Shown piece by piece: positions 3,991 to 19,799 of a stretch of 64,000 nucleotides of DNA. The notes beneath the pieces are model-generated. The model had not been told where the DNA came from and ran no database searches. It saw only the letters and a list, made by a program, of their open reading frames with translations. A program made the translations under genes and the position numbers. Each line of letters opens with the position of its first letter. The first letter of the stretch is position 1. Origin of the DNA: Chromobacterium subtsugae (GTDB lineage: Bacteria; Pseudomonadota; Gammaproteobacteria; Burkholderiales; Chromobacteriaceae); assembly GCF_001676875.1 (NCBI RefSeq), contig NZ_JYKA01000001.1, positions 1 through 64,000 on the forward strand. The letters run 5' to 3'.

Positions 3991-4614
3991 GTGCAACGCA
4001 TCATCAAACATTTGGGCCTGGCCGACTACGAGCCGACCTGGCGCGCCATGCAGGCGCTCACCGACCAGCGCGACGACGACACCCGGGACGAACTGTGGGT
4101 GGTCGAACACCCGCCGGTGTTCACCCAGGGACTGGCCGGCAAGCCGGAACACCTGCTGCAGCAAAACGACATCCCGGTGGTGAAGACCGACCGCGGCGGC
4201 CAGATCACCTACCACGGTCCCGGCCAACTGGTGATCTACCTGCTGATTGATTTCAAGCGCATGCGCATCGGCGTGCGCGAACTAGTGCGCCACATCGAGC
4301 AGGCCATCATCGACATGTTGGCCGAACAGGGCATCGCCGCCAACGGCGATGTCGACGCGCCCGGCGTCTATGTCGACGGCGCCAAGATCGCCTCGCTGGG
4401 CCTGCGCATCAAGAACGGCGCCACCTACCACGGCCTGAGCCTGAACGTGGACATGGACCTGAGCCCGTTTGGCTGGATCAACCCTTGCGGCTACGCCAAC
4501 CTCAAGGTGACACAATTGAAGAATCTGGGCGTGAACCTCACGGTCGCCGAAGCCGCCGACAAGCTGCTGCCGCACCTGGAACGCCACCTGAGCACAAGCA
4601 AGGAGACCGCATGA
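3991..4614 (+). CDS. lipB: Octanoyl-[acyl carrier protein]:protein octanoyltransferase LipB
   Basis: LipB moves octanoate from ACP to the lipoyl domains of 2-oxoacid dehydrogenases and GcvH. The 207-residue protein carries the signature [13 protein letters not shown] (68-80), a conserved AKIASLG with K132, and the acyl-accepting cysteine C166 in NPCGYANL; these match the K135/C169 dyad of the E. coli enzyme. The start is GTG, supported by GGGAG eight bases upstream. Its stop overlaps the lipA start (ATGA), which implies translational coupling. Confidence 0.95.
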
Positions 4615-5558
4615 AGCCGGACAACCAGGCCGGGGTGAAGCACAAGGGCGCGGCCAAGACCGCCCGCATCCCGATCAAGATCGTGCCGCTGGACGAAAAG
4701 CTGAGAAAGCCGGAGTGGATCCGCGCCAAGCTGCCCAACAGCCAGCGCTTCCACGAAATCAAGCAGATCCTGCGCGATCAGAAGCTGCACACCGTGTGCG
4801 AAGAAGCCTCCTGCCCCAATATCGGCGAATGCTTCAGCAAGGGCACCGCCACCTTCATGATCATGGGCGACATCTGCACCCGCCGCTGCCCGTTCTGCGA
4901 CGTCGGCCACGGCCGCCCCAACCCGCTGGACGAGAACGAGCCCAAGCATCTGGCCGAGAGCGTGGCGGCGATGCGGCTGAAGTACGTGGTGGTCACCTCG
5001 GTGGACCGCGATGACCTGCGCGACGGCGGCGCCCAGCACTTCGCCGACTGCATCAACGCGGTGCGCGCCGCCTCGCCGGGTACCCAGATCGAAACCCTGG
5101 TGCCCGACTTCCGCGGCCGCCTGGACATCGCCATCGACATCCTCAGCGGCACCGCGCCGGACGTGATGAACCATAACCTGGAAACCGTGCCGCGCCTGTA
5201 CAAGCAAGCCCGCCCCGGCGCCGACTACGCCCACTCGCTGCAGTTGCTGAAAGACTACAAGGCGAAGAACCCGGACGTGCGCACCAAGTCCGGCCTGATG
5301 GTGGGCCTGGGCGAGACCGACGAGGAAATCCTGGAAGTGATGCGCGATCTGCGCGCTCACGACGTGGACATGCTGACCATAGGCCAGTATCTGCAGCCGT
5401 CGGACGGCCACCTGCCGGTGCTGCGCTACGTGCACCCGGATGTGTTCAAGATGTTCGAGGAAAAAGCCTACGAAATGGGCTTCGTCCACGCCGCGGTAGG
5501 CGCGATGGTGCGCTCCAGCTACCACGCCGACGTGCAGGCGCATGAGGCTGGCGTGTAA
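4611..5558 (+). CDS. lipA: Lipoyl synthase LipA (radical SAM)
   Basis: LipA inserts two sulfurs into protein-bound octanoyl groups. The 315-residue protein has the auxiliary cluster cysteines C63, C68 and C74 (CEEASC...C), the radical-SAM triad C89-x3-C93-x2-C96 in CTRRCPFC, and the C-terminal RSSYHA whose serine ligates the auxiliary cluster. The ATG overlaps the lipB stop codon. The TAA stop (5556-5558) forms the first three bases of the TAAAC target duplication of the downstream Tn7-like element. The coding sequence is therefore intact, but its native terminator now lies 8.9 kb away at 14443-14477. Confidence 0.96.
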
Positions 5559-5560
5559 AC
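5556..5560. repeat. Target-site duplication, left copy (TAAAC)
   Basis: TAAAC immediately precedes the left transposon end (TGACACGTCC) and recurs at 14420-14424 directly after the right end. A 5-bp duplication is typical of Tn7/Tn5053-type transposition. The first three bases are the lipA stop codon. Confidence 0.85.
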
Positions 5561-5569
5561 TGACACGTC

Positions 5570-5629
5570 CAACGCTAATGGCGACTAAACAACGCTAATT
5601 TGTACTCTACATCGCTAAATGCTACTGAG
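5570..5629 (+). repeat. Left-end TnsB-type binding repeats (three direct copies, 20-bp period)
   Basis: Three copies start at 5570, 5590 and 5610. They read CAACGCTAATGGCGACTA, CAACGCTAATTTGTACT and CATCGCTAAATGCTACT, spaced exactly 20 bp. The first copy begins nine bases inside the transposon tip. Direct repeats of about 20 bp at both ends are the hallmark of TnsB binding arrays in Tn7-like elements. The third copy overlaps the 5' region of the following gene. Confidence 0.8.
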
Positions 5630-5639
5630 GAGGGCGGGT

Positions 5640-7355
5640 GTGCGAAAGGCAATTCCAAAGATCAAGGAGTTTCCAGACGACGGCCGCATCTGGAGGGTAG
5701 ATTGGTTTGGCGGTGTAGAGCGCAATCCTCAGATTCCCTCCGAACCTAAAATCCAACTCATCATCAGCCCGGTGGTGGATGGCGCCATCGATTACGCTGC
5801 CAGCAACTCCGTCAATCACGAAGAACGTAGCTCAATCAGCATCGGCATTGGTCAGCTTCCCCTCATTACCATCGGTTCGCTTTGGCAAAACCGGCATTGC
5901 TTGATCGAAAGTGCCGGCAAAACCAAGGTCTTCGAAAATCTCGTCATCTCGCCTAAGACGGCCCTCTTGGTAAAATCGGACGCTCTAGTAGGCGGGCAGC
6001 CACTCGTCCGTAAAAAGTACCACCAGATCGGCGCAGGGCTTGCTGCAAACTGCTTGGCTATCGAATGGCAGGGAGACCCATACGGCATCATCATCCCGAC
6101 AGCCGAGGTCATTCGTTTTTACTATGCCACGTCAACAGATCTCGCCAAGGCCATTTTTGCTGGCGATTTTCGACATGAACTGGGTTCAATCGTGAATCCA
6201 ACTCAGTGCGGTTACATCAAGCAGGAAAATCGCTGCATCCTCAAGTTGCGTAAGGAGTTTGCCGATGCGGATGCCTGGACTATTGGACGCATACTGAATA
6301 GCCATGAAGCGTTCAATGGTGCCGTCCTAGTGCATGACTCGATGATCAAGCAAGCCGTACAGAGTAAGTCCCGCCTGTATCCAGAAGCTGCGTTTCCTTT
6401 TGTCGGGGAAACCAACCTACGGGTGCGGATGAAAGCGATGAGGTCGCCAGATGAGAAACGCTGGCGTTTCATCGTTTTTGCGTTGGAACACTGCACGGGA
6501 CCATTTCCATTCAGTGCTATTACCTGCGACCGTGATAACAGCAACCTGCGCCCAGAGGAAGGGCATGATCAGCCGGATGAATTGAAGGCCCCTGCATATC
6601 CTCGCAAGCAGCAATCGGGGAAGGATGTTACCGATGGCGAATTGCAGAGCAATGAGGATGCCTCCAAGGAGATCCAGTCGGCTGTTATTGATCTACCTGA
6701 AGGGCGGTTTGGCGCGCTGGCGAATATGGAATTGGAGAAGCCCGAGAAGAATATTTGCCACTATTTCAACGCGGGGAGTGCTCACCCGCTCGAGCTCCCC
6801 TCTGATGTACTTGGCACGAGCGATGGCAATTATTCTGGTGGTATCATGACGCAAACGTCAATTGAGGTTAAGCATGAGCGCCAAGAGGCGTTGCCCGCGA
6901 GTTTTGCAAACTTCGAGGCGATGGTGCGACATCTGGATGGTTTGCCTGGGTACCAAGCAAAGATTCGCCCCAGATCTGATGCCACAATGCACATCCCGCT
7001 GACGAAACCACACCGGGCTTGGCAGTGGAGTTACTTGGATTCGGGAACACGGCAAAGACGTGCAGTTGTAATTGCAGACATTACGCATGATTGCTGCGTG
7101 TACAGCTTAGTTGAGTTTCAGTGGCGAGAAGAGGAATCGTTTAAGCTCGCAATGGTGTCGTTATCTGGAGGCGCCAGGCTGAGCGATGAGCAATTGCACT
7201 TACTGCTCAGAATGTTGGCTAAAAAGGAAGGTCGCTGGGGAAGCACTAAGCCATTACCCTGGAATGCCAAGCTTATCACCTTCAAGCACACATGGCCTTC
7301 CGTTGACGCATATGCCCAGGCAATTTTGGCAAGAGTAAGCACATTTTCAAATTAA
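5640..7355 (+). CDS. Hypothetical protein, candidate distant TnsE-like protein
   Basis: The function is not certain. The start chosen is GTG at 5640 because a perfect AGGAGG lies six bases upstream; this gives 571 residues, close to the 538 of Tn7 TnsE. By eye it resembles TnsE in layout. There is an N-terminal IWRVDWFGG (Tn7 TnsE has a comparable EWRIFVWF). A PTAEVIRFYYA segment near 160-175 recalls the TnsE QLELARS helix. A long acidic/polar linker lies at about 300-400. A C-terminal domain (about 435-571) contains a VVIADI/VYSLVEF strand pattern and a closing WPS-type helix. TnsE directs Tn7 to replicating or conjugating DNA. The gene lies at the transposon end opposite tnsABC-tniQ and faces it. 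It could instead be unrelated cargo. Confidence 0.45.
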   Translation: MRKAIPKIKEFPDDGRIWRVDWFGGVERNPQIPSEPKIQLIISPVVDGAIDYAASNSVNHEERSSISIGIGQLPLITIGSLWQNRHCLIESAGKTKVFENLVISPKTALLVKSDALVGGQPLVRKKYHQIGAGLAANCLAIEWQGDPYGIIIPTAEVIRFYYATSTDLAKAIFAGDFRHELGSIVNPTQCGYIKQENRCILKLRKEFADADAWTIGRILNSHEAFNGAVLVHDSMIKQAVQSKSRLYPEAAFPFVGETNLRVRMKAMRSPDEKRWRFIVFALEHCTGPFPFSAITCDRDNSNLRPEEGHDQPDELKAPAYPRKQQSGKDVTDGELQSNEDASKEIQSAVIDLPEGRFGALANMELEKPEKNICHYFNAGSAHPLELPSDVLGTSDGNYSGGIMTQTSIEVKHERQEALPASFANFEAMVRHLDGLPGYQAKIRPRSDATMHIPLTKPHRAWQWSYLDSGTRQRRAVVIADITHDCCVYSLVEFQWREEESFKLAMVSLSGGARLSDEQLHLLLRMLAKKEGRWGSTKPLPWNAKLITFKHTWPSVDAYAQAILARVSTFSN

Positions 7356-7409
7356 GAATTACTTTTTTGTTTTGCTAACCAATGTAGCTGTGTTGTAGTA
7401 GGGTGAATT

Positions 7410-7439
7410 TTGACATAATACATGCTATTTAAGTTATTT
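7410..7439 (+). promoter_or_regulatory. Candidate sigma-70 promoter for the ParB-like/methylase pair
   Basis: A perfect TTGACA at 7410-7415 is followed 18 bp later by TTATTT (7434-7439) in an AT-rich gap before the ParB-like gene. A good RBS (AGAGGA) then precedes its ATG. The -10 is imperfect. Confidence 0.4.
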
Positions 7440-7452
7440 AAGCGAGAGGAAT

Positions 7453-8910
7453 ATGGAAATGGTAAATCCAGGGTTCAGGAATCAAGACGAGGTTTCTCTA
7501 AACAGGCTTCACCTTGACACCCAGAACCCAAGACATGACCCACTTGAAGATGAAGATGAGATCATCGCTCAGCTCTACAAAGACGAACAGGTTCTGAATC
7601 TTGCAAAGGATATTGTTGCCAAAGGAACGTTGAGTCCTCTTGACCGCCCTGGAGTGATTGAAATGGACGACAATCCTGGTCACTACATCGTCGTGGAGGG
7701 AAATCGCCGAACGTGTGCACTCAAGCTGTTGCATGACCCGCAGAAAGCTCCTACTCCAGAAGTTCGTGCTACATTTGAAGCTTTGTCAAAAAGGTTTGAA
7801 GTACCCTCCTCGTTTTCTGTCGTTGTATTTACAGATCGCAATGCTGCTCGCCCATGGATTGGTTTGCGTCACTTGGGGGCTCAGGAAGGGGCGGGAACTC
7901 GCACTTGGGATGCTGCACAAAAGTCCCGGTATGCTGAAACAGAATCGCCCAATCAGTTAGCATTGGCGCTGCTGGACCACGCGGAGAAATCCGGCTGGAT
8001 AGATGCCGATATGCGTGAGCAACTGGCAATTACTACCCTCACGCGATATCTTAGTAGCCCACTGGTACGTGCCGCACTTGGGCTTGGAAACCATCGAGAG
8101 CTGTTATATACCCATGATGCTTCTGAAGTAGAGGCCGCGCTACGTCAGTTTCTTGCTGACGCGGCTCCTGTGCATGACGGAGGTGTGCCACGTGTTCATT
8201 CTCGGTCTAGAAAGTTGGAACGAGAAGCATATGCCAGAGAGCTTGCCGTGCGAGGGATCACTCCTCGGAGCTTGTTGCCATTTCCAAGTCAGCCTCCTGA
8301 ACCTGGTTGGCAGGATGACCTATCTCCCGACGTAGTCGAACCCGCTCCAATTCATGGTGTAGATCCTGGGCCAGAACCCCTTGACCCTGGCATTACTCCT
8401 CCGCAACCTGAACCGGATCCTTTACCACCCGCCCCTGATCCAGGCAAGCCCGCTCAACCAAGACCTCCACGTGGGAAACAACATCCGGATGATCGCATGT
8501 ACCTCATGCCAACGGACTTTACTTTCACTCATAGTGATAAGTCACTGCGTCGTTTGCGCGGTGAATTTCGCAGCACGCCAATCGATGATCATGAGTTCGC
8601 AGTAAATTATCTGCTGAGAGCCTTTATCGAGCGGGTGTTGGTTCTCTATGCCAAGCACCGAGGGGTACATAGGTCAAAGATGGCAGATCAGAAATTGGTG
8701 CAAGTTTGTGTAGAGGAACTGGGCAAAGAAGGCGTGCCAGATAACGATCTGAAATTGATGAGGGTTGCAATGTCTGACGAAAACTCGGCGCATAGCTTGC
8801 ATACCTTGGGTACTGCTGTTCACACAAGCCTTGTCGCAACTCGAAAGAGCCTGGTGGGGGCGTGGGATAACTGGGAGAAGGCTCTAAAAATAATGCTTTC
8901 TCGTATGTAA
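7453..8910 (+). CDS. ParB/sulfiredoxin-fold nuclease-like protein (transposon cargo)
   Basis: The 485-residue protein has an N-terminal ParB-like domain (about 14-115). It starts with LNRLHLDTQNPR and has the nucleotide-binding motif EGNRR (82-86), the cargo-type variant of the ParB GERR motif. A proline-rich linker follows (about 300-350). A helical C-terminal domain contains AVNYLLRAFIERVLVLYA, reminiscent of helical domains on other ParB-like defence or phage proteins. ParB-fold proteins may hydrolyse CTP or act as nucleases; no partner ParA is present, so plasmid partition is unlikely. It lies 42 bp upstream of an adenine methylase on the same strand, which suggests a two-gene modification/nuclease unit. 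The ATG has a good AGAGGA RBS. Confidence 0.7.
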   Translation: MEMVNPGFRNQDEVSLNRLHLDTQNPRHDPLEDEDEIIAQLYKDEQVLNLAKDIVAKGTLSPLDRPGVIEMDDNPGHYIVVEGNRRTCALKLLHDPQKAPTPEVRATFEALSKRFEVPSSFSVVVFTDRNAARPWIGLRHLGAQEGAGTRTWDAAQKSRYAETESPNQLALALLDHAEKSGWIDADMREQLAITTLTRYLSSPLVRAALGLGNHRELLYTHDASEVEAALRQFLADAAPVHDGGVPRVHSRSRKLEREAYARELAVRGITPRSLLPFPSQPPEPGWQDDLSPDVVEPAPIHGVDPGPEPLDPGITPPQPEPDPLPPAPDPGKPAQPRPPRGKQHPDDRMYLMPTDFTFTHSDKSLRRLRGEFRSTPIDDHEFAVNYLLRAFIERVLVLYAKHRGVHRSKMADQKLVQVCVEELGKEGVPDNDLKLMRVAMSDENSAHSLHTLGTAVHTSLVATRKSLVGAWDNWEKALKIMLSRM

Positions 8911-8952
8911 AAATGTCTGGCCAGCCGGGGTCATTTTTGCTATCGTACCGCC

Positions 8953-9813
8953 ATGCCTACGACTGAATCCCCATTGAGATACCCAGGCGGGAAGACACAA
9001 CTAACGCCATTTGTGAGCGATCTTCTACGTGTAAACGACCTCCAGCAAGGCGTGTATGCAGAGCCATTCGCTGGAGGAGCTGGACTCGCCTGGAGACTGC
9101 TGCTGTCAGGCCAGGTAGGCGAGGTATGGCTTAACGATATTGATCCCTGTGTTTATGCCCTGTGGGATGCTGTACTCAATCAGCCAGGGGCGTTGTGTGA
9201 GCTAATTACTGAAACACCAATAACGCTAGATGAATGGCATCATCAGCGTAGCGTATTTTTGGATAGCAATGCACCAACGCTGGATCGTGCGTTTTCAACA
9301 CTGTTCATGAATAGAACGAATCGTTCAGGCATCTTGCTTGGTGGTGTGATTGGCGGAAAATCTCAAGAGGGTGCATATAAATTAGATTGCCGTTTTAATC
9401 GCAATGAGTTGGTTCGGAAAATTCAACGAATCGCACGCCATCGTGATGTGGTTCGACTAACTCGGCTTGATGCGGCCGAGTGCATTACTCAATGGTCAGA
9501 ACAACTTCCCCCGCGATCGCTTATAAATATTGACCCACCTTATTTTGCAAAGGGTCAAGAGTTGTATATCAATTTCTATACGCCTTCGGATCACGCCAGT
9601 CTTGCTGCTGTAATTCGTAAGCTACGGTGTCCGTGGATGCTGACATATGATGATGTACCTCAGATCGAAGAGCTATATGCAGGTCTTCCAGTCTATCGAA
9701 AGAGCCTTGTGTATTATGCGCAAGTTAAGCGGAAGGCAAATGAGCTGTTGGTGCTTTCTCCGCAGCTACGTGCCCCTGATGGTTTGGTGAGTCCGATTAT
9801 TGAGGCGGCCTAG
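8953..9813 (+). CDS. D12-class DNA adenine-N6 methyltransferase (Dam-like)
   Basis: The 286-residue protein shows the class-alpha order of motifs: RYPGGK (9-14, N-terminal motif X), EPFAGGAG (37-44, AdoMet-binding motif I), NDIDP (61-65) and catalytic DPPYF (194-198, motif IV). It should transfer a methyl group to adenine N6; the target sequence cannot be read off. It follows the ParB-like gene by 42 bp and converges on tniQ with a 19-bp gap. No cognate restriction endonuclease is adjacent, so it is either a solitary cargo methylase or works with the ParB-like nuclease candidate. Confidence 0.9.
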   Translation: MPTTESPLRYPGGKTQLTPFVSDLLRVNDLQQGVYAEPFAGGAGLAWRLLLSGQVGEVWLNDIDPCVYALWDAVLNQPGALCELITETPITLDEWHHQRSVFLDSNAPTLDRAFSTLFMNRTNRSGILLGGVIGGKSQEGAYKLDCRFNRNELVRKIQRIARHRDVVRLTRLDAAECITQWSEQLPPRSLINIDPPYFAKGQELYINFYTPSDHASLAAVIRKLRCPWMLTYDDVPQIEELYAGLPVYRKSLVYYAQVKRKANELLVLSPQLRAPDGLVSPIIEAA

Positions 9814-9832
9814 TAAAAATAGTCATAGCGGA

Positions 9833-10867
9833 TCAAGGTCCCTTTCGTTTTTGTGTCCTTGTTCCTATTTTTTTCAAGCTTAATTGCTGGTGCAGTTTAT
9901 CTGCAGCGTTTCTATACCATGATGGGGCGTGGCTGAAGTCACGCATTAGCCAGTTGTACTTAAGCGCGCGTTGGGTCCAGGCTACCCAAAGTCGGCTTGG
10001 CCACCTCCCTATCAACCACCAAGCCAAGCCCATAATGTAGTGTCGATCGATTAGCTCCCGGCTCTCGATTGATAGCTTTCCAGTCACCATTCTGGGATGA
10101 GCAAGTCCAGTCCTTGTCGTGACATATTCCGCCAGTTTTTGTTTCGCGCCATTGCTAGATAGCAACTTGGCCATTTGGTGCAACACCGCCAGCATGTCGT
10201 AATCAAACCTGCTAGATGAAGGCGTTCCGCTATCGATTATGCGTAACACTTTCTCCCAGGACTGGAAAGTACGCCCGTTCCATTTGTGGACTGGTTCGAT
10301 TTTCGATTGGCGATAATCAAAGCTGCACGCCCAGCAGATACAGAGCGGCTCCATGCTCATTTCTCGGGGGTGTCCCAGTTCAATCCGGTGATAGGCCACG
10401 CCTTGCCCACACTGTGGGCATCGATCTAGCAACATGCAATTATGCTTGGGGCAGAAGGTGTAGAGTGCGACACGCCATGCTCGGCGGAAGTAGGGCTCTA
10501 CGTCCTCGCTCAAGCAAATTGGACAGAATTGCATGCCATGCCCAAGTCGCTTGCGGTGATACATTTGAAGCGAAAGCATCCATTTTAGTTGGCCGGATGC
10601 CTTCTCTTGCTCGAATAGTTTGCCTCGGTAGGCCATCAGTGTAGTTTGCCAGACGCGCTCAATTGTCGTCCCGGTTCTTGTTGCCATAGCCTCAATCAGC
10701 CACAGGGGGGCAAGCCTATCGATGTCTCGGTTCCACACCTGCCGTTCATTTCCAAATGTCAGCCGACAAAATGATTGCACTTTCAGCCCATTCGCATGGG
10801 CCACGCGGACAAGCCAAGATGATAGCAACTCATCTCTGTATGGATGAGGATGAGCGGGCCAAAGCAT
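9833..10867 (-). CDS. tniQ: TniQ-family target-selection protein
   Basis: The 344-residue protein starts with the typical TniQ pattern (PYRDELLSSWLVRVAHANG). It carries zinc-binding clusters CPICL (115-119), CPKH (139-142), CPQC (150-153) and CICWAC (176-181). TniQ/TnsD proteins bridge the target site to TnsC. The length is near Tn5053 TniQ (about 400) and shorter than site-specific Tn7 TnsD (508), so whether it alone recognises a chromosomal site is open. It is the last gene of the tnsA-B-C-tniQ operon; its start is within two bases of the tnsC stop. Confidence 0.88.
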   Translation of the reverse strand: MLWPAHPHPYRDELLSSWLVRVAHANGLKVQSFCRLTFGNERQVWNRDIDRLAPLWLIEAMATRTGTTIERVWQTTLMAYRGKLFEQEKASGQLKWMLSLQMYHRKRLGHGMQFCPICLSEDVEPYFRRAWRVALYTFCPKHNCMLLDRCPQCGQGVAYHRIELGHPREMSMEPLCICWACSFDYRQSKIEPVHKWNGRTFQSWEKVLRIIDSGTPSSSRFDYDMLAVLHQMAKLLSSNGAKQKLAEYVTTRTGLAHPRMVTGKLSIESRELIDRHYIMGLAWWLIGRWPSRLWVAWTQRALKYNWLMRDFSHAPSWYRNAADKLHQQLSLKKIGTRTQKRKGP

Positions 10868-10868
10868 G

Positions 10869-11756
10869 TCAGTTGCTCAGTTGAGCTTGCCGCTTTCGAT
10901 CAGATGGTGATATCCAACCGACTCCGTCGAGAGCGCGTGCATCGATCTGCTCCCGCCCTGTTTTGATTGCATGCTCGGCGGCATTGGCCAGTAACCGTGA
11001 GAGCTCTCCGATGTAGCCTTCGCTCATCGAAAACAGCTTTGCGGCCAGGGTAGTGCTGTGCAGAGCCGATGGCTCTCGAAGCGGCAGCATCCGTTCGAAG
11101 CTGGCCAACAGGCGGAGAAAGTCGGTATCGAATTCCCAGCGGGGCAGCAGCGCCGGTTCGAAACGGTTGGCCAACTGTGGGTCAGTTTGCAGGGCGCGGA
11201 AGGCATCTCGGGTGCCGACGGCCACGATCGGAACTTGCAGCTCGTTGCCCAAGTATTTGAGCACATTCAAGAAGGCGCGCTGTCGGTTCAGATTTCCGGC
11301 CAGAACATGGTGGATCTCATCGATGATCAGCATGCGCAGTCCGACGTATTTCAGCAGCTTGATGACCTGGAATTGCTTCTTATCCACCCGGTCATTCGGC
11401 TTATACGGCGCAAACAGCAGTTCGAGGATGGCATTGTAGAAGCGGCCTTCATCGGGAACCGGTGGCGCTTGCATGCAAAGCACCGGTACTCGAATGCCTT
11501 CGCCGGAGGGGTTGTCGTCGGCTGGGTGTTGGGAGCAGAACCGCTGTACCAGCATGGTCTTGCCGTTGTTGGTGTCACCCACCACCAGCAGGTTCGGCAT
11601 GCGGTGCGATTTCGGGTAGGTCAACAGATCATCGAGCTTAGCCAGGATCGCTTTCGCCTGCGGATAGCCAATCCAACGCGGCGCCCTGATCCTCTCTATC
11701 CGTTCTGGATCGCTTAGCTCGAGCAGCTTGAGGGTCGAGTCGTTCAAGTGGCTCAT
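10869..11756 (-). CDS. tnsC: TnsC/TniB-type AAA+ ATPase
   Basis: The 295-residue AAA+ regulator has Walker A GDTNNGKT (60-67), Walker B MLIIDEIHH (142-150) and a sensor-1 region VAVGT. The size fits TniB of Tn5053-type elements (about 300) rather than Tn7 TnsC (555). It relays target information from TniQ to the transposase and forms filaments on DNA in better-studied relatives. The ATG overlaps the tnsB stop codon by four bases, indicating coupling. Confidence 0.92.
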   Translation of the reverse strand: MSHLNDSTLKLLELSDPERIERIRAPRWIGYPQAKAILAKLDDLLTYPKSHRMPNLLVVGDTNNGKTMLVQRFCSQHPADDNPSGEGIRVPVLCMQAPPVPDEGRFYNAILELLFAPYKPNDRVDKKQFQVIKLLKYVGLRMLIIDEIHHVLAGNLNRQRAFLNVLKYLGNELQVPIVAVGTRDAFRALQTDPQLANRFEPALLPRWEFDTDFLRLLASFERMLPLREPSALHSTTLAAKLFSMSEGYIGELSRLLANAAEHAIKTGREQIDARALDGVGWISPSDRKRQAQLSN

Positions 11757-13630
11757 GCCAAGTCATCCATTTCATCAAAAGGCAGGATCGCCGGCACAGT
11801 TTGCGGCTGCGGCGTGGTGTGCTCTACCATTTGCGCCACTGGCGGAGTAGGTTGACGGACCACCTCCTGATGGTCTTTGCGCCGCTGAGTTGCGCGCCGC
11901 GCCGACATCGTTTTGGCTTGGGCGTTTTGTTCGATCTCCCGCATACGGTCATAGGCGGCGAAAAGTGCACGCTCATCGACATGTCGTCGTCCATCGGCCT
12001 CGGCTCGACGCTTTGCCTCGCGCATTTCCCAGATGCTGATAGGAGGGTGGGATGTATCCCGGTAGGGGATCGGGTAGTAGAGATCGACCTCGGGGTCGTA
12101 GAACCAGATCGTGCTGATGTCACGCGGATCGCGGCGAAACATGAACTTGCGCTTGTACTTGGGCGCTACCGGGTCAGGGGCATTGATCCAGCGGCGTAGC
12201 ACATCATGGTAGTAGTGGATCTCGTCGATCACCACACCGTAGTCCTGGACCGTGCGCTCCTCGTACGGCATGAGATCGAGCCGCAAACGATCCACGTCAG
12301 TGATCCGCGCAGGTAAGCCGCGGCCTGGCATGTCCTTGGTGCCGAAGATCCCCTGGCGGTATTTCTCTATCGGCGGCATCCGGAGGCCGGAATGCACGCG
12401 CTGGTGATATACGTTGACGATGAAGGTCACCAGCCACTCTTCTAATTCGGTGAGCGATAGCGCTGCCCTGCCCTCCGAGTCATAACCGCCTCGCTCCTGA
12501 ACATTGGAAAATGTAGTGCCCGGTAGGGTATGGATTTCATTGGCGAAAGTGCCCAGCAGGCGTTCGATGTGTCCACCGAAATGTGGTCGAGCAACTGGCC
12601 GCCATTCGATGTCTATGCCGTATTGGTCGCAGGCCCGCTTCAGCATATTGCCGCGAAACTCCCGGGCATTATCCATGTGCAGCTTTGCCGGAATGCCCCA
12701 GCAGGGCCATTCCCCCTTGACGCCATGCTTGGCCAGCCAGCCCTCCTTGGGAAGAATCGCATTGGCCAGACACTGGCCGGCCGATAGAGCGCCGGGCGGA
12801 TCGAACGATACGTAGAATCCGACCGCCATTCGACTGAATACGTCGATCGCCATGGTGATCCATGGCTTGCCCACTGGCCGACGGTCGATGTCGTCCACCA
12901 GGATGATGTCCAGCGGGGTGTGGTCGATCTGCACAACGGCGAGCGGCCAATCCGCGCCAGGGAAGCTGCCTTCGATTGGCGAATAGGCTTGGTCAGCTGC
13001 TTTGCGGCCTCTGCGCTTGGCCATAACATACTCGCCGGCCAGCAGTTTCAGGCGGTTACGTACGGTGTTGTCGTGCGGCGGTTCTATGCCGGCATTCAAA
13101 CAGCGCTTGCGCACCTCGTCGCAGACTTTCTGCTGCGATTTTCGCTGCTTGGTCAGGTATTCGCTTTCTACTACCACCTGGATGATCGCTTCGATTTCCG
13201 GCGTGAGCTTGGTGGCGCCCTTGTCGCTCCGAGTACGAGGCAGCAGCGAGGTCAGTAAATGATTGTCTTCGTAGCGGCGTAGCCACTCGTAGAGCGTATT
13301 CGCATGGTGGCCGAAAGCTTTGCCTCGGTCGGTGACGTCTTGCCGGCTGCGGTCTGCTTTGTCGAGCAGCGGGCGGATGATCTCGTAACGCCGTTTTGCC
13401 TCCTCCCAATCCTTGTCCAGCACTTGCAATAAGTCCGGCCGTGCCGACGGCTGCGAATTGCCGACCACCGCTTCCAAGTCTCCCACCTTGGCGTGGCTGA
13501 CCTGGTTGGTTTCGTCGTCGGCCAGCAGCACCTCGTCGAGATCCAGCACATGGGTGATGCGATGGAGTCGATTTTGATAGACCACCGCTGTGCCTGGTTG
13601 GAGCTGCAATAGAGTGGTGGGCGTACTCAT
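11753..13630 (-). CDS. tnsB: TnsB/TniA-type DDE transposase
   Basis: The 625-residue transposase binds the end repeats and joins 3' ends to the target. An N-terminal helix-turn-helix region (about 95-215) precedes a retroviral-integrase-fold core. The catalytic triad is D236 (VVQIDHTPLD), D320 (HMDNAREF) and E355 (GGHIERLLG), followed by a Mu-type C-terminal beta-barrel and a basic tail that probably contacts TnsC. Its start overlaps the tnsA stop by four bases. Confidence 0.94.
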   Translation of the reverse strand: MSTPTTLLQLQPGTAVVYQNRLHRITHVLDLDEVLLADDETNQVSHAKVGDLEAVVGNSQPSARPDLLQVLDKDWEEAKRRYEIIRPLLDKADRSRQDVTDRGKAFGHHANTLYEWLRRYEDNHLLTSLLPRTRSDKGATKLTPEIEAIIQVVVESEYLTKQRKSQQKVCDEVRKRCLNAGIEPPHDNTVRNRLKLLAGEYVMAKRRGRKAADQAYSPIEGSFPGADWPLAVVQIDHTPLDIILVDDIDRRPVGKPWITMAIDVFSRMAVGFYVSFDPPGALSAGQCLANAILPKEGWLAKHGVKGEWPCWGIPAKLHMDNAREFRGNMLKRACDQYGIDIEWRPVARPHFGGHIERLLGTFANEIHTLPGTTFSNVQERGGYDSEGRAALSLTELEEWLVTFIVNVYHQRVHSGLRMPPIEKYRQGIFGTKDMPGRGLPARITDVDRLRLDLMPYEERTVQDYGVVIDEIHYYHDVLRRWINAPDPVAPKYKRKFMFRRDPRDISTIWFYDPEVDLYYPIPYRDTSHPPISIWEMREAKRRAEADGRRHVDERALFAAYDRMREIEQNAQAKTMSARRATQRRKDHQEVVRQPTPPVAQMVEHTTPQPQTVPAILPFDEMDDLA

Positions 13631-14283
13631 TTATGAAGGCTCCAGATCGGACTGGTCATCGTCAGCTTCTTGGTAAGATCGACGCCAACCTGCCCTGTTC
13701 CGACCAAGTACCAAAGGGAGGGAAGCAGGCGCGCCTGATTCCACTGGTCCTGAAACACTGCGGACAGCAGCTCTGCCGGCGTGGCGTGGCGGATCAGACG
13801 CAGCTGATCGTCGAGTAGGTCCATGTGAGCTTCTTCTGCCGGCCCCTGTCGAACGAACGGCAGCAGGAACTTGGCGTTGTCGAGATACTGGGAACGGATC
13901 TCTACCTCTGTGACGATCTTGAAACGCCAGCCTTCGATGCGGGCGAAATGCACGGCTGCGCGGAGCTTCGGACGCAGTTCTTGCCAATCCCTACGCAGTT
14001 CATCTCGGTACTTGACCTCGTAAAGTGTCTTGCTTTGCTGCCCATGAGGTAGCTTGAAAGTGGCGAGCGCGTCGGGCGTGTAGCGGCGGATTTTGCCGTC
14101 GGAATCGGTCCACTCGAGCGTAAGCGGTTGGACCTCGAAGGTTTCGACAACCGGGTCGAATTCCAGCAACGTGATAAAGTCACGCTCCAGTGTGGACTCG
14201 AACATGGCCGGCCCGTTCGCCTTGCGGTGCGCGGCGATGCCGGTGACGTTACGGTAGTTCTTGGGGATCTTGCGCACGGGCAT
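13627..14283 (-). CDS. tnsA: TnsA endonuclease (5'-strand cleavage subunit)
   Basis: The 218-residue protein has a PD-(D/E)XK nuclease core with FESTLERDF (E33), YTPDAL (D71) and EVK (89-91), matching the E/D/QxK arrangement of Tn7 TnsA. TnsA cuts the non-transferred strand, so the presence of an intact copy predicts cut-and-paste rather than replicative transposition. The ATG at 14283 is preferred over an upstream GTG because GAGG lies seven bases before it. The promoter region is embedded in the right-end repeat array, suggesting transposase autoregulation. Confidence 0.9.
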   Translation of the reverse strand: MPVRKIPKNYRNVTGIAAHRKANGPAMFESTLERDFITLLEFDPVVETFEVQPLTLEWTDSDGKIRRYTPDALATFKLPHGQQSKTLYEVKYRDELRRDWQELRPKLRAAVHFARIEGWRFKIVTEVEIRSQYLDNAKFLLPFVRQGPAEEAHMDLLDDQLRLIRHATPAELLSAVFQDQWNQARLLPSLWYLVGTGQVGVDLTKKLTMTSPIWSLHK

Positions 14284-14294
14284 GATGTACCTCA

Positions 14295-14410
14295 CTCAGT
14301 ACACGATAGCACTGTAGAACTCCGGTGGGTACAAGAAAGCGACGTCAGCCAGTAGCGAAGAGCTATGTGGACGTTGCTGAAAAATCGTCAACCAGTACAG
14401 TCGAGCGTTG
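14295..14410 (-). repeat. Right-end TnsB-type binding repeats
   Basis: Read from the right tip inward, copies occur at 14391-14410 (CAACGCTCGACTGTACT), weakly at 14371-14390, at 14348-14367 (CATAGCTCTTCGCTACTG), at 14325-14344 (CGTCGCTTTCTTGTAC) and at 14295-14314 (CAGTGCTATCGTGTACT). They match the left-end copies. The innermost copy lies about 12 bp from the tnsA ATG. The first and third copies lie at nearly the same distance from the tip as their left-end counterparts. Confidence 0.72.
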
Positions 14411-15098: not shown

Positions 15099-15642
15099 TG
15101 CGCAACCCGCCCAAACCATGTCCCGCGGCGAAACCGCCACTACTTGTCCAGCATAGACAAATCCATGCATGTCAAGCGCAAAGCGAACGCATGCGGCTGG
15201 AATGCCGCGCTATCCATATATTGCAAATCAATATAAAAAAGACGAATCCGCCACGCTTGCCGCGAAAACAGCAATTTGGTTTGATTTAATAGGCAGTTTC
15301 GCTTATAGTCGGATTGTTATTAATTTTGCAAAGGCAAACCGTGGACAACGACGGTTCCAGTCGATCTTCGATCGCAGTATCGCCTTGCAGGATTTAAGCA
15401 GACCGAATTCCTTCCTTCTGCCTCATCCTGCAAAGCCAGGATGTGGCATCCGTTCCGGCCTGAAAACAGGCTGACGCGCCAAACGCAATCCACTCAGTCA
15501 CACAGCATCGCCTTATGCCGCGGCTTCCAGTCCGCGCTGCGCTTCTGCGTCCCGAATGGCTTGCCAGCATCCCCCAGCATCAGACCGACTCAGCAAACCG
15601 ACCGAATTGTTTACGCTAGCTGCGTGCGCCAAAGGAGATTCC
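15099..15642. other. Gene-free leader/promoter region of the mgt locus
   Basis: About 540 bp without a convincing gene. It is AT-rich around 15210-15340, where the promoter lies. From the predicted start site to the first structural gene the transcript would have an untranslated leader of over 500 nt, interrupted only by the short leader ORF at 15643. No known riboswitch family was recognised by eye. Confidence 0.6.
15281..15309 (+). promoter_or_regulatory. Sigma-70 promoter of the magnesium-transport locus
   Basis: TTGATT (15281-15286), a 17-bp spacer and TATAGT (15304-15309) form a near-consensus promoter in an AT-rich island, pointing toward mgtA. A GGTTTG just upstream faintly recalls a PhoP half-site, but no proper direct repeat was found. 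Confidence 0.6.
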
Positions 15643-15699
15643 ATGCCGGAAGAACCAGAACCGCGAACGTATGCGCCGCGTAGCTGCGCGTCAGGCTAA
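15643..15699 (+). CDS. Leader peptide 1 of the mgt locus (MPEEPEP type)
   Basis: An 18-codon ORF with a strong SD (AAAGGAGA, five bases before ATG) encodes MPEEPEPRTYAPRSCASG. Alternating acidic residues and prolines right after the start recall E. coli MgtL ([17 protein letters not shown]), where such a stretch destabilises translating ribosomes at low Mg2+ and switches on mgtA. A second ORF in this locus repeats MPEEPEP exactly. The ORF lies 142 bp before the first small structural gene. That it is a Mg2+-sensing leader is an inference from position, composition and duplication. Confidence 0.6.
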   Translation: MPEEPEPRTYAPRSCASG

Positions 15700-15841
15700 T
15701 TCCGCTATTGGGCGGAAATAACCGGCTCGGCAGCCGCGCCATACTCCGCTCATTCAATATCGGACCGCATTCCCGCATACGGTTATTCAAACCGGAAAGG
15801 GGTGCTTATTCTCTGCTGCTATAAAAATAGGGGGATTCAAT

Positions 15842-16219
15842 ATGCGAGCCCTGAAACTGTCCCAACTGCTGAAATTCTTTACCCGCGGCAATACTTCCGC
15901 TCAAGTTGCCGACTTCCGCCTGAATATCGTTTGCGACAAAGCCGTCATCACCACGCTGCGCAAACGCCTGTTCTGGGAAATGCACGACCTCGGCCTGCGC
16001 GCCTCGCAAGTCACCATCGGCCCCGACAGCCATGACAACCAGTGCAAGCTGTCGGTGGTGCTCAACTGCCCGCTGACGCAACGCCAGGACCTGGACGACA
16101 TGGCGCTGCGCCTGAGCCAGCTGCCGGAAATCCGCCGCGTGCACTGGGGCCGCCGCCTGCATAGCGCGCAGCCACATCACCGCTCGTTGTTCGGCAGCCG
16201 TCCGCGCATCGCCGCCTAA
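15842..16219 (+). CDS. Small protein resembling the MgtC C-terminal (ACT-like) domain
   Basis: The protein has 125 residues. After a basic N-terminus, residues 24-105 (FRLNIVCDKAVITTLRKRL... to LPEIRRVHW) follow the beta-alpha-beta-beta-alpha-beta pattern of the soluble C-terminal domain of MgtC: a leading L-x-V-x-C strand and a closing R-V-x-W strand. The membrane half of MgtC is absent. An RBS (GGGGGA) precedes the ATG. It lies in the same direction as mgtA and behind the leader peptide, so it is probably a regulator or partner of Mg2+ transport. The assignment is by eye and moderately sure. Confidence 0.55.
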   Translation: MRALKLSQLLKFFTRGNTSAQVADFRLNIVCDKAVITTLRKRLFWEMHDLGLRASQVTIGPDSHDNQCKLSVVLNCPLTQRQDLDDMALRLSQLPEIRRVHWGRRLHSAQPHHRSLFGSRPRIAA

Positions 16220-16287
16220 CGCCGAACCCGTCGCGCCGGCGTCCGCAAAGACCGCCGGCCAAACCGCCGCACCACAAGGCCCCAGCC

Positions 16288-16344
16288 ATGCCCGAAGAAC
16301 CCGAACCGCAGACAGCCAGGTCTTCGCCGCCGGCACCGCACTGA
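16288..16344 (+). CDS. Leader peptide 2 of the mgt locus (MPEEPEP type)
   Basis: This 18-codon ORF encodes MPEEPEPQTARSSPPAPH. The first seven residues equal those of the ORF at 15643, yet two of the seven codons differ synonymously, which points to selection on the peptide rather than recent DNA duplication. The SD is weak (AAGG). A stable hairpin (GATGGAC / GTCCATC) follows at about 16361-16391, before the next small gene. Confidence 0.5.
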   Translation: MPEEPEPQTARSSPPAPH

Positions 16345-16476
16345 TCCACCCCTTCCCGTAAGCGATGGACAGCGCCGCCGCCGCGCCGTCCATCATGCCG
16401 CTTCCCGGCTATCGCCGCGGAAGACGGCTGCCTGTCGCCATGTGAAACCACACGCGCCATTCCACAGGAGCTTACG

Positions 16477-16821
16477 ATGCAAAACCTGTTCACCACCCCC
16501 CGCAATCAGCAGCTGTATCAGCTGTCCATCATCTGCCCATCGATGTCGCTGGGCGCCGCCAGACGCGAAATCCGCACCCTGGCGCAAAAACACGGCTTGC
16601 GCATTCAGCAATGGCAGGAGCAGCCGCAGCCGGCCGCGCGGGAAAGCCGCCATACGCTGACGCCCTGGCTGATCTGCGCCGATTTCCGCTGCGGCTCCGA
16701 GGCCTGCATGCATTTCCTGCAGGGCATCGCCCAGCGGCTGGCCACCATGCCGCTTACCCGGGTCAAGCTGGATTGCCTGTCGCTGCCGCCAAGCGGCATG
16801 CGGCGTCCAGCCAGCGCCTGA
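16477..16821 (+). CDS. Second small MgtC-C-like (ACT-type) protein
   Basis: The protein has 114 residues. Residues 13-104 begin LYQLSIICPSMSLGAARREI and end TRVKLDCLSL, a ferredoxin-like strand/helix order similar to the protein at 15842, though sequence identity is low. Start ATG has GGAG six bases upstream. It follows leader peptide 2 in the same way that the first small protein follows leader peptide 1, so the two modules look like an ancient duplication. No signal peptide or membrane segment is present. Function unknown; Mg2+ transport regulation is inferred from context. Confidence 0.5.
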   Translation: MQNLFTTPRNQQLYQLSIICPSMSLGAARREIRTLAQKHGLRIQQWQEQPQPAARESRHTLTPWLICADFRCGSEACMHFLQGIAQRLATMPLTRVKLDCLSLPPSGMRRPASA

Positions 16822-16840
16822 TCCTCCCCGCCCGGCCGCC

Positions 16841-16900
16841 ATGCCGGCCGCCATGCCGGCCGCGGCAAGACCATCATCCGCAGGAGAAGGCATGCCATAG
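16841..16900 (+). other. Possible third short leader ORF before mgtA
   Basis: A 19-codon frame encodes [19 protein letters not shown]. It starts in a 12-bp tandem repeat with no SD. Its last two codons, ATG CCA TAG at 16892, carry their own SD (AGGAG), forming a near start-stop unit about 160 bp before mgtA. It lacks the acidic stretch of the other two leaders, so its role is doubtful. Confidence 0.25.
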
Positions 16901-17057
16901 ACACGCAACACGCTGATTGAGATGCCATCCGCTGGGGCGTTCGCATAGAGCCCCCCAACGGGCGGCAATGTTCTCTCGATTTCGAGTCGACACATTGTCG
17001 GCGCTGATGCCTCACGGCAGGGATGGTCACGCCCGTTGTCAGCGCCAGGAGATACCC

Positions 17058-19799
17058 ATGACCAAACACAACACCCAACGCAGCAAGAACCGCGGCTTCA
17101 TCGCCACCCCGGGAAAACGGCAGGACAAAGTCGCCTTCCGCTTGGCCGACGAAGCCCGGCTGCCGCTGGAAGACACCTTCAAGCGGGTGCGCAGCCAGCC
17201 GGACGGCCTCTCCGCGATGGAGGCCGCGCAGCGGCTGCAGCAATACGGCCGCAATGAAGTGGCGCACGACAAGCCGCCGCACCCGCTGGTTCAGCTATTC
17301 CTCGCGTTCAAGAATCCTTTCGTGATGGTGCTGATCGTGCTGGGCGTCATCAGCTACGTGATGGACATCGCCATGGCGCCGCCGGACGACCAGGATTGGA
17401 CCAAGGTCATCATCCTGTCCGCCATGATCGCCATCAGCGGCCTGCTGCGCTTCTGGCAGGAATTCCGCTCGGCCAAGGCGGCGGAAAAGCTCAAGTCGCT
17501 GGTGCGCAACACCGCCACCGTGCAGCGCCGCCCCGCCGGCCCCAATCCGCCGCTGCGTCTGGAGGTGCCGATGTCGGAACTGGTGGTGGGCGACGTCATC
17601 CATCTGCAGGCTGGCGACATGATTCCGGCCGATATCCGCTTGCTGGAATCGCGCGACCTGTTCATCAGCCAGGCCGTGCTCACCGGCGAAGCGCTGCCGG
17701 TGGAGAAGTACGACACGCTGGGGGCGGTGGCCGCCAAGTCGGCCGAGCGGGACGCCAGCCACGCCGACGACCTGCTGGACCTGCCCAATGCCTGCTTCAT
17801 GGGCACCAATGTGGTGTCCGGCACCGCCCGCGCGCTGGTGGTCGCCACCGGGGCCGATACCTATTTCGGCTCGCTGGCGCGCAATGTGGTCAGCCACAAG
17901 CGCATCGAAACCAGCTTCGACAAGGGCGTCAACAGCGTGTCCTGGCTGCTGATCCGCTTCATGCTGGTGATGGTGCCCATCGTGTTCATGATCAACGGCG
18001 TCACCAAAGGCGACTGGATGTCCGCCCTCACCTTCGCGCTGGCGGTGGCCGTGGGCCTGACTCCGGAAATGCTGCCGATGATAGTCTCCGCCAACCTGGC
18101 CAAGGGCGCGGTGGCGATGGCGCGGCGCAAGGTGGTGGTGAAGCGGCTGAACGCGGTGCAGAACTTCGGCGCGATGGACGTGCTGTGCACCGACAAGACC
18201 GGCACGCTGACCCAGGACAAGATCATCCTGGAGCACCATTACGACATCCATGGCCGCAAGGATGAAAGCATCCTGCAACTGGCCTGGCTCAACAGCTTCC
18301 ACCAGAGCGGCATGAAAAACCTGATGGACATCGCCGTAGTGGAGCATGCCGACGAGCTGGGCGACCGCATCAAGCTGCGGCAGTACGCCAAAGTGGACGA
18401 GCTGCCGTTCGATTTCGAGCGTCGCCGCCTGTCGGTGATCGTGGAAGACGGCGGACAGCAATTGATGGTATCCAAAGGCGCGGTGGAGGAAATGCTGGCT
18501 GTCTGCAGCCATATCCGCGATGGCGGCGAAACCCGCGCGCTGAATGCCGAAGAACGCGCCGCCCTGCTGCGCCGCAGCGAGGAATACAATGCCGAAGGCT
18601 ACCGCGTGCTGGTGGTGGCCACCCGCGACATTCCCGCCGCCGAGCAAAAACGCAGCTACCGCACCGCCGACGAACAGGGCCTGGTGGTGCGCGGCTTCCT
18701 CACCTTCTTCGATCCGCCGAAGGACTCCGCCGCGCCGGCCATCCGCGCGCTGAAGGAATACGGCGTGGCGGTGAAGGTGCTGACCGGCGACAACCCCATC
18801 GTCACCGCCAAGGTGTGCCGCGATGTCGGCCTCAGCCCCGGCCTGCCGCTGATCGGCAAGGAAATCGAGGCGATGGACGACGTGGCGCTGTGCACCGCGG
18901 TCAAGCACACCACCATCTTCGCCAAGCTGACGCCGCTGCAAAAATCGCGGGTGGTGAAGGCGCTGCAAGCCAACGGCCACACCGTCGGCTTCCTCGGCGA
19001 CGGCATCAACGACGCGCCGGCGCTGCGCGACGCCGACGTCGGCATCTCGGTGGACAGCGGCGCCGACATCGCCAAGGAAACCGCCGACATCATCCTCTTG
19101 GAAAAGAGCCTGATGGTGCTGGAAGAAGGCGTGATCAAGGGCCGCGAAACCTTCGGCAACATCCTCAAATACCTGAACATGACCGCCAGCTCCAACTTCG
19201 GCAATGTGTTCTCGGTGCTGGTGGCTTCGGCCTGGCTGCCATGGGAGCCTATGCTGGCGATGCAGCTGTTGCTGCAGAACCTGATCTACGATCTGTCGCA
19301 GATGTTCCTGCCATGGGACAAGATGGACCCGGAATTCCTGAAAAAACCGCGCAAATGGGAAGCCGGCAACATCAAGCGCTTCATGCTGTGGCTCGGCCCC
19401 ACCTCTTCGGTGTTCGACATCACCACCTACATCCTGCTGTGGACGGTGTTCGGCGCCGGCGCGGCCTACCATCTGCACGGCGGCGACGGCGGCCAGCTGA
19501 TCATGAACACCGGTTGGTTCATGGAAGGGCTGATCTCGCAGACGCTGGTGGTGCACATGCTGCGCACCCGCAAGATTCCGTTCCTGCAAAGCACGGCGTC
19601 GCTGCCGGTGCTGCTGTCCACCAGCGTGGCCATCGCCATCGCCTGCTATCTGCCGTTCTCGCCCATCGCCGCCTCGCTGGGCTTCATCCAGCTGGACGCC
19701 AGCTACTTCTGGTGGCTGCTGCTGACCATGGCCGGCTACCTGGCGCTGACGCAGACGGTGAAGACCATCTACATCAAGCGTTACGGCCAGTGGTTCTAA
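17058..19799 (+). CDS. mgtA: Magnesium-translocating P-type ATPase MgtA
   Basis: The 913-residue P3B-type ATPase imports Mg2+ across the inner membrane. It has an N-terminal cation-ATPase domain, the TGEALPVEKYD actuator motif, phosphorylation site CTDKTGTLTQ (Asp near residue 378), TGDNP, and the hinge GDGINDAPALRDADVG. The C-terminal membrane segments include NMTASSNFGN and QNLIYDLSQ, which are characteristic of MgtA/MgtB rather than Ca2+ or heavy-metal pumps. The length is close to E. coli MgtA (898). The ATG at 17058 has an AGGAG eight bases upstream. The polypeptide starts with a basic N-tail (MTKHNTQRSKNRG). It ends at an intrinsic terminator. Confidence 0.95.
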   Translation: MTKHNTQRSKNRGFIATPGKRQDKVAFRLADEARLPLEDTFKRVRSQPDGLSAMEAAQRLQQYGRNEVAHDKPPHPLVQLFLAFKNPFVMVLIVLGVISYVMDIAMAPPDDQDWTKVIILSAMIAISGLLRFWQEFRSAKAAEKLKSLVRNTATVQRRPAGPNPPLRLEVPMSELVVGDVIHLQAGDMIPADIRLLESRDLFISQAVLTGEALPVEKYDTLGAVAAKSAERDASHADDLLDLPNACFMGTNVVSGTARALVVATGADTYFGSLARNVVSHKRIETSFDKGVNSVSWLLIRFMLVMVPIVFMINGVTKGDWMSALTFALAVAVGLTPEMLPMIVSANLAKGAVAMARRKVVVKRLNAVQNFGAMDVLCTDKTGTLTQDKIILEHHYDIHGRKDESILQLAWLNSFHQSGMKNLMDIAVVEHADELGDRIKLRQYAKVDELPFDFERRRLSVIVEDGGQQLMVSKGAVEEMLAVCSHIRDGGETRALNAEERAALLRRSEEYNAEGYRVLVVATRDIPAAEQKRSYRTADEQGLVVRGFLTFFDPPKDSAAPAIRALKEYGVAVKVLTGDNPIVTAKVCRDVGLSPGLPLIGKEIEAMDDVALCTAVKHTTIFAKLTPLQKSRVVKALQANGHTVGFLGDGINDAPALRDADVGISVDSGADIAKETADIILLEKSLMVLEEGVIKGRETFGNILKYLNMTASSNFGNVFSVLVASAWLPWEPMLAMQLLLQNLIYDLSQMFLPWDKMDPEFLKKPRKWEAGNIKRFMLWLGPTSSVFDITTYILLWTVFGAGAAYHLHGGDGGQLIMNTGWFMEGLISQTLVVHMLRTRKIPFLQSTASLPVLLSTSVAIAIACYLPFSPIAASLGFIQLDASYFWWLLLTMAGYLALTQTVKTIYIKRYGQWF

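Follow-up and report, generated by a model that had tools for sequence, protein, structure and literature searches.

Repeated acidic/proline leader ORFs and a conserved RNA element with a uORF precede magnesium transporter genes in Chromobacterium

Short ORFs whose peptides open with acidic residues interspersed with prolines are found twice in the mgtA operon of Chromobacterium subtsugae and once more before mgtE. Because this start is largely preserved before two kinds of Mg transporter genes, the leaders are probably switches that turn Mg uptake on when magnesium is low, a reading that comes from the comparison of genomes. An earlier note on this DNA had recognized the two copies 5' of mgtA and interpreted them as a duplicated betaproteobacterial version of the ribosome-destabilising control known from MgtL. 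In that interpretation, the selection on the peptide, the acidic/proline make-up, the duplication, and the association with Mg transporters are all supported by comparison, and the rest we infer. The note is incomplete, in that it missed both the mgtE copies and a conserved RNA element with its own uORF, here called the NDG element, which lies upstream of the leaders. Collectively, the arrangement is ordinary in kind and new in place and scale, with repeated acidic/proline leaders, through which the ribosome probably reads Mg2+, following an unnamed regulatory RNA that carries a uORF.

The features of the operon within the window, i.e., the whole stretch of 64,000 nucleotides that was analysed, are collected in Table 1. 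Both 18-codon ORFs reported previously are present and share the start MPEEPEP, in which two of the seven codons differ synonymously (codon 2, CCG/CCC; codon 5, CCA/CCC). The strong SD sequence ascribed to leader 1 is indeed there, whereas leader 2 has only a weak one. The description of the gene following each leader as MgtC-C-like stands in part: gene 1 scores 26.8 bits against PF21770, just below the cut-off of 27, and gene 2 has no Pfam match; the two genes are nevertheless relatives at the profile level (hhalign probability 87%, pairwise E 4e-6, 81 columns). At the position of the promoter-like site, a TATAGT, TATAAT, or TATACT hexamer is found in 20 of 20 aligned rows. A search of the + strand from 15150 to 17070 gave no intrinsic terminator-like site. 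The 191-nt stretch 5' of leader 1 contains 69 C and 45 G.

Table 1. Features of the mgtA operon and its leader region (positions in the window)
Feature	Position	Strand	Remarks
Promoter, sigma-70-like (TTGATT, 17 nt, TATAGT)	15281..15309	+	Sole promoter-like match in 15150-17070; chance expectation 0.7
NDG element, conserved 136-nt RNA element with uORF	15317..15452	+	No Rfam match
uORF within NDG element, MDNDGSSRSSIAVSPCRI, then stop	15341..15397	+	GTG start, SD AAAGG
RNA region 1, TGCAAAGGC	15327..15335	+	Holds uORF SD; pairs with region 2
RNA region 2, GCCTTGCAGGAT	15382..15393	+	Partner is region 1 or region 3
RNA region 3, GCCTCATCCTGCAA	15420..15433	+	Partner is region 2 or region 4
RNA region 4, CAGGATGTGGC	15437..15447	+	Partner is region 3
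Leader 1, MPEEPEPRTYAPRSCASG, then stop	15643..15699	+	18 codons, ATG, SD AAAGGAG
Leader-1 stop codon and local hairpin after it (TTCCGC/GCGGAA)	15697..15717	+	
Small gene 1, 125 aa, MgtC/SapB C-terminal-domain-like	15842..16219	+	PF21770 near cut-off
Leader 2, MPEEPEPQTARSSPPAPH, then stop; intergenic	16288..16344	+	18 codons, ATG, weak SD AAGG
CGTAAGC, perfect complement of GCTTACG in gene-2 ribosome-binding region	16357..16363	+	
GCTTACG adjoining gene-2 SD	16470..16476	+	
Small gene 2, 114 aa, distant gene-1 relative	16477..16821	+	
mgtA, P-type Mg2+ ATPase	17058..19799	+	TIGR01524, 1278 bits

Some further observations concern the surroundings of the operon. A two-codon ORF with a good SD (ATG CCA TAG, window 16882-16900) lies before mgtA, at a place where some relatives have an acidic leader. 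Upstream, the stretch 4485-14295 of the window contains Tn7-like transposon genes, of which a TnsA-like gene (13627-14295) and a Mu/TnsB-type transposase gene (11753-13630) were both recognized by Pfam. Judged by sequence style, the transposon genes also include an AAA-type ORF (10869-11756) and a TniQ/TnsD-like ORF (9833-10867), and DNA-methylase-like (8953-9813) and ParB-like (7453-8910) ORFs adjoin them; the block is flanked by a lipA-like gene (4485-5558) on one side and by the mgtA leader on the other. At one other locus (L023), a lipA-like ORF is found shortly upstream of the NDG element.

The leaders are retained wherever a close MgtA is found in the family. An MgtA-like match at E <=1e-100 is present in 26 of 61 family genomes, 21 of which encode a close MgtA, defined by at least 77% identity (the 19 genus genomes, G028, and G039). 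All 21 carry at least one acidic/proline leader upstream, that of G014 without a recognisable SD, and neither loss nor frameshift of the leader, the outcome named beforehand as counting against the earlier note, was seen among them; in the remaining five MgtA genomes (43-56% identity), no leader passed the same filter. The genus genomes comprise 12 of clade W, including that of the window, five of clade V, a second type unlike the window, with leaders starting MLIEDPEP and MSEEPEP, and G011 and G014 with other layouts. Leaders that failed the SD filter were the only close leader of G014 (L030) and leader 2 at L023, L024, and L036. At five loci (L027, L028, L029, L031, and L032), a further acidic ORF with an SD, MTD(D/E)SYP(L/R)PP..., lies ~180 bases before the mgtA match and may represent a third leader; at L034, a similar MSDDSYGP stretch lies inside a longer ORF 5' of mgtA.

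The MPEEPEP start is under selection at the peptide level, as indicated by the codon changes inferred for the 12 clade-W genomes on a tree built from the inter-leader region. In codons 2-7 of leader 1, zero, zero, and seven changes fall on the first, second, and third codon positions, respectively, with no amino-acid change, which agrees with the earlier proposal that selection acts on the peptide and with the third-position changes expected from aligning relatives. The same codons of leader 2 show zero, two, and seven changes and three amino-acid replacements. The tail of leader 1 (codons 8-18), counted in 11 of the 12 genomes with the shorter leader of L011 left out, has accumulated 19, 14, and 12 changes, 45 in all, of which 30 alter the amino acid. 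The difference from the tail is significant by Fisher test both for leader 1 alone (p = 3.8e-4) and for the two leaders together (p = 5.0e-5).

The same kind of leader is associated with the second transporter type. The third copy in the C. subtsugae genome stands on contig C34, ahead of a gene whose product has MgtE_N, CBS, and MgtE domains, and G016 has a leader before a gene 88% identical to this mgtE. In each of five genomes (G002, G003, G007, G010, and G015), the covariance model located one further NDG element, which had no part in building the model and is followed by MSEEPEPRPCR(P/L) and then by a gene of 229-254 codons. Among the short MgtE genes (L056-L060), the two tested match the membrane domain only, at 97 bits each, without MgtE_N or CBS. 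In G011, mgtE and mgtA are adjacent, with one acidic/proline leader before a small gene upstream of mgtE and another before mgtA.

With reasonable though far from complete confidence, we favour the view that the leaders are translated and that the EEPEP start destabilises or stalls the ribosome at low Mg2+, thereby gating the next gene. At high Mg2+, the ribosome would reach the leader stop codon and mask the surrounding sequence, which would promote a structure in which the next gene's ribosome-binding site is later hidden or, alternatively, the RNA is exposed to Rho. At low Mg2+, presumably the signal, early drop-off of the ribosome would leave the stop sequence free to form a local hairpin, and the next gene would be expressed; the direction of the switch would thus be that of induction by magnesium shortage. 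The NDG element upstream, with its uORF MDNDGSSRS, would form a first layer of control that chooses in a similar manner between two folds, 1:2 + 3:4 and 2:3, described below. A published result counts against this reading, namely that di-acidic residues alone are reported to be insufficient to destabilise ribosomes (PMC11282234).

The hiding of the binding site by pairing with the leader-stop region is a hypothesis suggested by complementarity. For leader 2, the 7-bp CGTAAGC/GCTTACG complement is found in 8 of 12 clade-W genomes, including that of the window. For leader 1, the stop/hairpin stretch complements the gene-1 SD in several clade-W genomes, over only 6 bp in the window. The RNAalifold prediction from ten clade-W sequences joins the gene-1 SD to the stop region of leader 1, but with an unfavourable covariation term (+0.96); the leader-1 region in the window folds no better than shuffles (z 0.81). 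We then compared uninterrupted helices between leader-stop regions and binding sites of the next gene for cognate and non-cognate combinations, a matrix from which G011, with its single sequence, and L060, where no gene passed the filter, were omitted. This comparison supersedes a duplex test with mononucleotide shuffles, which was noisy and was set aside. The cognate means exceed the non-cognate range for leader classes W2 (16.2 vs 11.4-14.9), V1 (21.0 vs 11.0-14.0), and V2 (19.0 vs 11.6-14.7), whereas that of W1 (18.4) lies within it (12.3-20.0), with V1 leaders scoring higher on the W1 binding site; for the mgtE copies, the difference is negligible (13.2 vs 12.1-12.8). Thus, the pairing looks specific in W2, V1, and V2 and not in W1. 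The complementarity differs in sequence among the four classes, with the cognate pair the best in three of them, although sequences within a class are closely related and the cases are therefore few as independent ones.

Variation among the leaders bears on which property of the start matters. The variant starts MPEDPEP, MPEEPGP, MSEEPEP, MLIEDPEPRPRRP, MTEEPEPEP, MPTEPEPYP, MLSDEPEPRP, and MSDDPRPRP preserve the chemistry. In all leader types, conservation of the two core prolines (xxPxP) is no less strict than that of the acidic residues. Sensing of proline would therefore also fit, the leaders responding through their prolines to charged tRNA-Pro or EF-P activity, with Mg2+ acting indirectly or only through the NDG element. 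In line with this, the two prolines persist even where the acidic residue between them is replaced by G (three leader-2 sequences) or R (the G028 leader), and control through proline codons and EF-P has been published for mgtL (PMC6460261) and is reported for Salmonella mgtP and mgtL. However, conservation extends to the acidic residues, of which at least one and as a rule two immediately precede the first core proline, with exchange only between D and E (EE, ED, DD, and DE; TE once), and the leader prolines are non-consecutive. We regard proline sensing as unlikely, though as a serious alternative.

The NDG element is a candidate regulatory RNA in its own right, with no counterpart in Rfam. 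Of the 61 family genomes, 19 carry it according to the covariance model, namely 18 of the 19 genus genomes (all but G014) and G028, with 27 copies in total. An acidic/proline leader follows 26 of these copies, with a small gene in between in clade V and at one G011 copy; the remaining copy lacks such a leader in its vicinity and has just an MSVPPEME... ORF ~1.7 kb further on. At L061 (contig C28 of G011), two small MgtC-C-like genes come after the NDG element with no EPEP leader near, and no transporter was recognised within the stretch examined. Rfam scans at gathering and relaxed thresholds returned nothing relevant, including no M-box match. Rfam does include the enterobacterial Mg sensor. 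Among 399 genomes of the order, the exact NDG pattern occurs in two genomes only, both inside the family. Under stricter filters, the covariance model recovered from 369 class genomes only the genome of the window and two low-scoring hits (per-genome E 4.8e-4 and 4e-3), which, given that 369 genomes were searched, we take to be due to chance.

The element is predicted to choose between two mutually exclusive folds, in which either regions 1 and 2 pair along with regions 3 and 4 (1:2 + 3:4) or region 2 pairs with region 3 (2:3). The NDG region of the window has a more favourable fold than its shuffled versions (z -3.40, 1 of 200), as does, less markedly, the copy before mgtE in the same genome (z -1.97, 6 of 200). 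In an alignment of 18 similar sequences (A2), the helices are kept and no pair is changed on both sides; covariation appears only in a larger alignment (A5), composed of A2, L028, L034, and six distant copies (26 copies, 25 distinct). L031 was dropped from both alignments and L028 from A2 only (identical sequence in this stretch), and L034 from A2 as too divergent; L013 and L024, close to retained rows, were omitted from alignment A4. In A5, which was fitted to helices 1:2 and 3:4 (whose columns are shared with 2:3) and not to the 2:3 pairs themselves, helix 2:3 and the inner helix are paired in 96.6% of cells and contain four doubly changed pairs, a number reached by 4 of 500 shuffles. Its covariation score is 0.134, whereas shuffles average 0.057 (0 of 500 reach it) and slid controls stay at <=0.061. 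For 1:2 + 3:4 and the uORF hairpin, 91.5% of cells are paired and four pairs are doubly changed, with a score of 0.155 against a shuffle mean of 0.137 (0 of 500), but one slid control ties with the four doubly changed pairs and surpasses the count of doubly changed cells (7 vs 5), in an alignment that was fitted to these helices; the uORF hairpin is paired in only 75.5% of cells. The comparison thus supports 2:3 clearly, and 1:2 and 3:4 less strongly, as the competing folds of the element.

The uORF starts with GTG in 24 and with ATG in 2 of the 26 copies, and the amino acids at its codons 3, 4, and 8 (N, D, and R, respectively) never vary. Across 17 genomes, codons 2-12 show two, three, and six changes at the first, second, and third positions, with two amino-acid changes. 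Constraints on the RNA and on the peptide overlap here and are not fully separable. The uORF may encode a nascent peptide of a new type that responds to Mg2+; alternatively, the RNA may be a new Mg2+-sensing aptamer.

Could the NDG uORF/RNA element be the only sensor, with the EPEP ORFs merely coupling or resetting translation between genes? The element is strongly conserved and covarying, folds better than its shuffles at both loci of the genome under study, and occupies the leading position in the transcript, just downstream of the sole promoter-like match. Against this, the leader starts are under strict peptide selection, and G014 and G039 have acidic/proline ORFs before mgtA (that of G014 without an SD) and no detected NDG element; we hold it to be a rather improbable account. 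A tentative extension of the favoured reading, to which we give less than even weight, is that both parts sense Mg2+ in a two-layer device common to unrelated transporters: the NDG element with its uORF MDNDGSSRS would act first, by a choice between 1:2 + 3:4 and 2:3, and the serial acidic/proline leaders would then act gene by gene.

That the ORFs encode small peptides acting in trans, e.g., on the transporter, is very improbable; short regulatory peptides near Mg transporters are described in Salmonella (MgtR and MgtU; PMC8092293), but here only the start is conserved, in leaders of 13-29 residues, and substitutions accumulate freely in the tail of leader 1. Pattern searches speak for the association of the start with magnesium loci. 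The exact back-translated MPEEPEP pattern has three matches in the 4.8-Mb genome of the window, two in the mgtA operon and one before mgtE; it occurs in 12 of the 19 genus genomes, where the reversed control has no match, and is confined to one of the ten genera represented among the 61 family genomes. The looser pattern M-x-[DE][DE]-P-[DE]-P has 39 matches, covering 19 of 19 genus genomes, against four for its reversed control; by coordinates, 36 of the 39 lie at mgtA or mgtE loci, and the other three look like chance upon inspection. Within 1.5 kb before mgtA at 15 family loci, SD-filtered acidic/proline ORFs number 33 on the sense and one on the antisense strand, nested starts included. Short ORFs are common, as those three chance-like matches illustrate, but with exact matches at Mg loci against none reversed, 39 looser matches against four, and a codon-position pattern opposite to that of the tail, an origin of the leaders as chance or background ORFs is scarcely credible.

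Outside the family, we examined named MgtA loci, the best 80 of 593 relatives. A strict EPEP-type ORF with a good SD is present at only one of these 80 loci, and looser acidic/proline ORFs number 10 sense against two antisense. Among short ATG ORFs at the same best 80 of 593, an SD together with two or more acidic residues at positions 2-8 is found in 18 of 67 sense and 3 of 41 antisense ORFs, spread over 16 of the 80 loci, a count that includes nested ORFs and whose enterobacterial members may include MgtQ. Examples of acidic ORFs are MPDSEIWPLR in Paraburkholderia and MDDDSSRWLCAV in Pseudochrobactrum. Given the sense excess, acidic leaders before MgtA genes may be a wider habit. An initial survey, which covered 17 MgtA loci from 16 additional genomes of the class, passed four ORFs in three loci, one with an MDPDP start; it was run without a control and is poorly anchored, since profile matches start inside the gene.

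Destabilisation of the ribosome as a sensor of Mg2+ has been described for leaders of E. coli and Salmonella in the papers cited here. MgtL, which lies in the 264-nt mgtA leader and has prolines at positions 3, 5, 7, and 9 (PMC6460261), is reported to cause ribosome drop-off at its EPDP motif at low Mg2+ (PMC11282234). Drop-off of this kind, countered by bL31 or EttA, is the trait of the MgtL-type class. The likeness to MgtL claimed in the earlier note holds for the composition, the acidic/proline make-up resembling the EPDP motif (PMC11282234), and extends to the arrangement: the leaders are short ORFs in the 5' part of a Mg2+ transporter mRNA, ahead of mgtA, with acidic residues and interspersed prolines alternating right after the start codon and within the first ten codons, and the clade-V leader MLIEDPEPRPRRP is especially close in style. 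Unlike MgtL, they usually come in pairs within an mgtA operon, each preceding a different gene, with an mgtE copy in some genomes, and no Rfam family matched here.

Leader 2 invites a different comparison, which the earlier note missed: inside the operon, between the MgtC-type gene 1 (only C-terminal-like and under the Pfam cut-off) and the next gene of the Mg2+ transporter operon, it has the position of Salmonella MgtQ, not of MgtL (PMC8092293). The intergenic MgtQ of the Salmonella mgtC-mgtB operon is described as freeing the mgtB binding site, has 8 residues, and has orthologues in Erwinia, Yersinia, and Serratia (PMC8092293). The resemblance lies in the acidic start, the place after an MgtC-related gene, and the possible hiding of the next ribosome-binding site, predicted here; the leaders described here differ in having 13-29 residues with a near-fixed heptapeptide and a preceding gene that is like MgtC in the C-terminal part only.

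The NDG element likewise has partial counterparts. The corL and mgtL leaders of E. coli and Salmonella are reported to choose between folds and to depend on Rho rather than on an intrinsic terminator (PMC11552253). As in these leaders, the uORF SD lies within one of two mutually exclusive folds and no intrinsic terminator is found, whereas sequence and Rfam relations are lacking, the uORF reads MDNDGSSRS, and the same element serves both mgtA and mgtE. The M-box (ykoK) and the Thioalkalivibrio mgtE motif are also RNA elements before mgtE-type genes (PMC11109978), but the former has no Rfam match here and the latter is set apart by its description alone, as a motif exclusive to Thioalkalivibrio (PMC11109978). 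In the open-licence literature, we found nothing on magnesium leader peptides of Chromobacterium or on betaproteobacterial mgtA leader peptides, only unrelated work for C. violaceum with mgtA or magnesium, and none on these leaders among the mgtL titles listed; restricted to open-licence papers, this is weak evidence of absence.

A near-fixed heptapeptide that is kept across a betaproteobacterial genus, repeated within an operon, and reused before mgtE would provide natural replicates for defining the residues that make a nascent chain sensitive to Mg2+. If the favoured reading is true, several Mg2+ transporters of one cell would be wired through the ribosome. If the two-layer device is also true, one transcript would read Mg2+ several times, ordering the expression of its genes.
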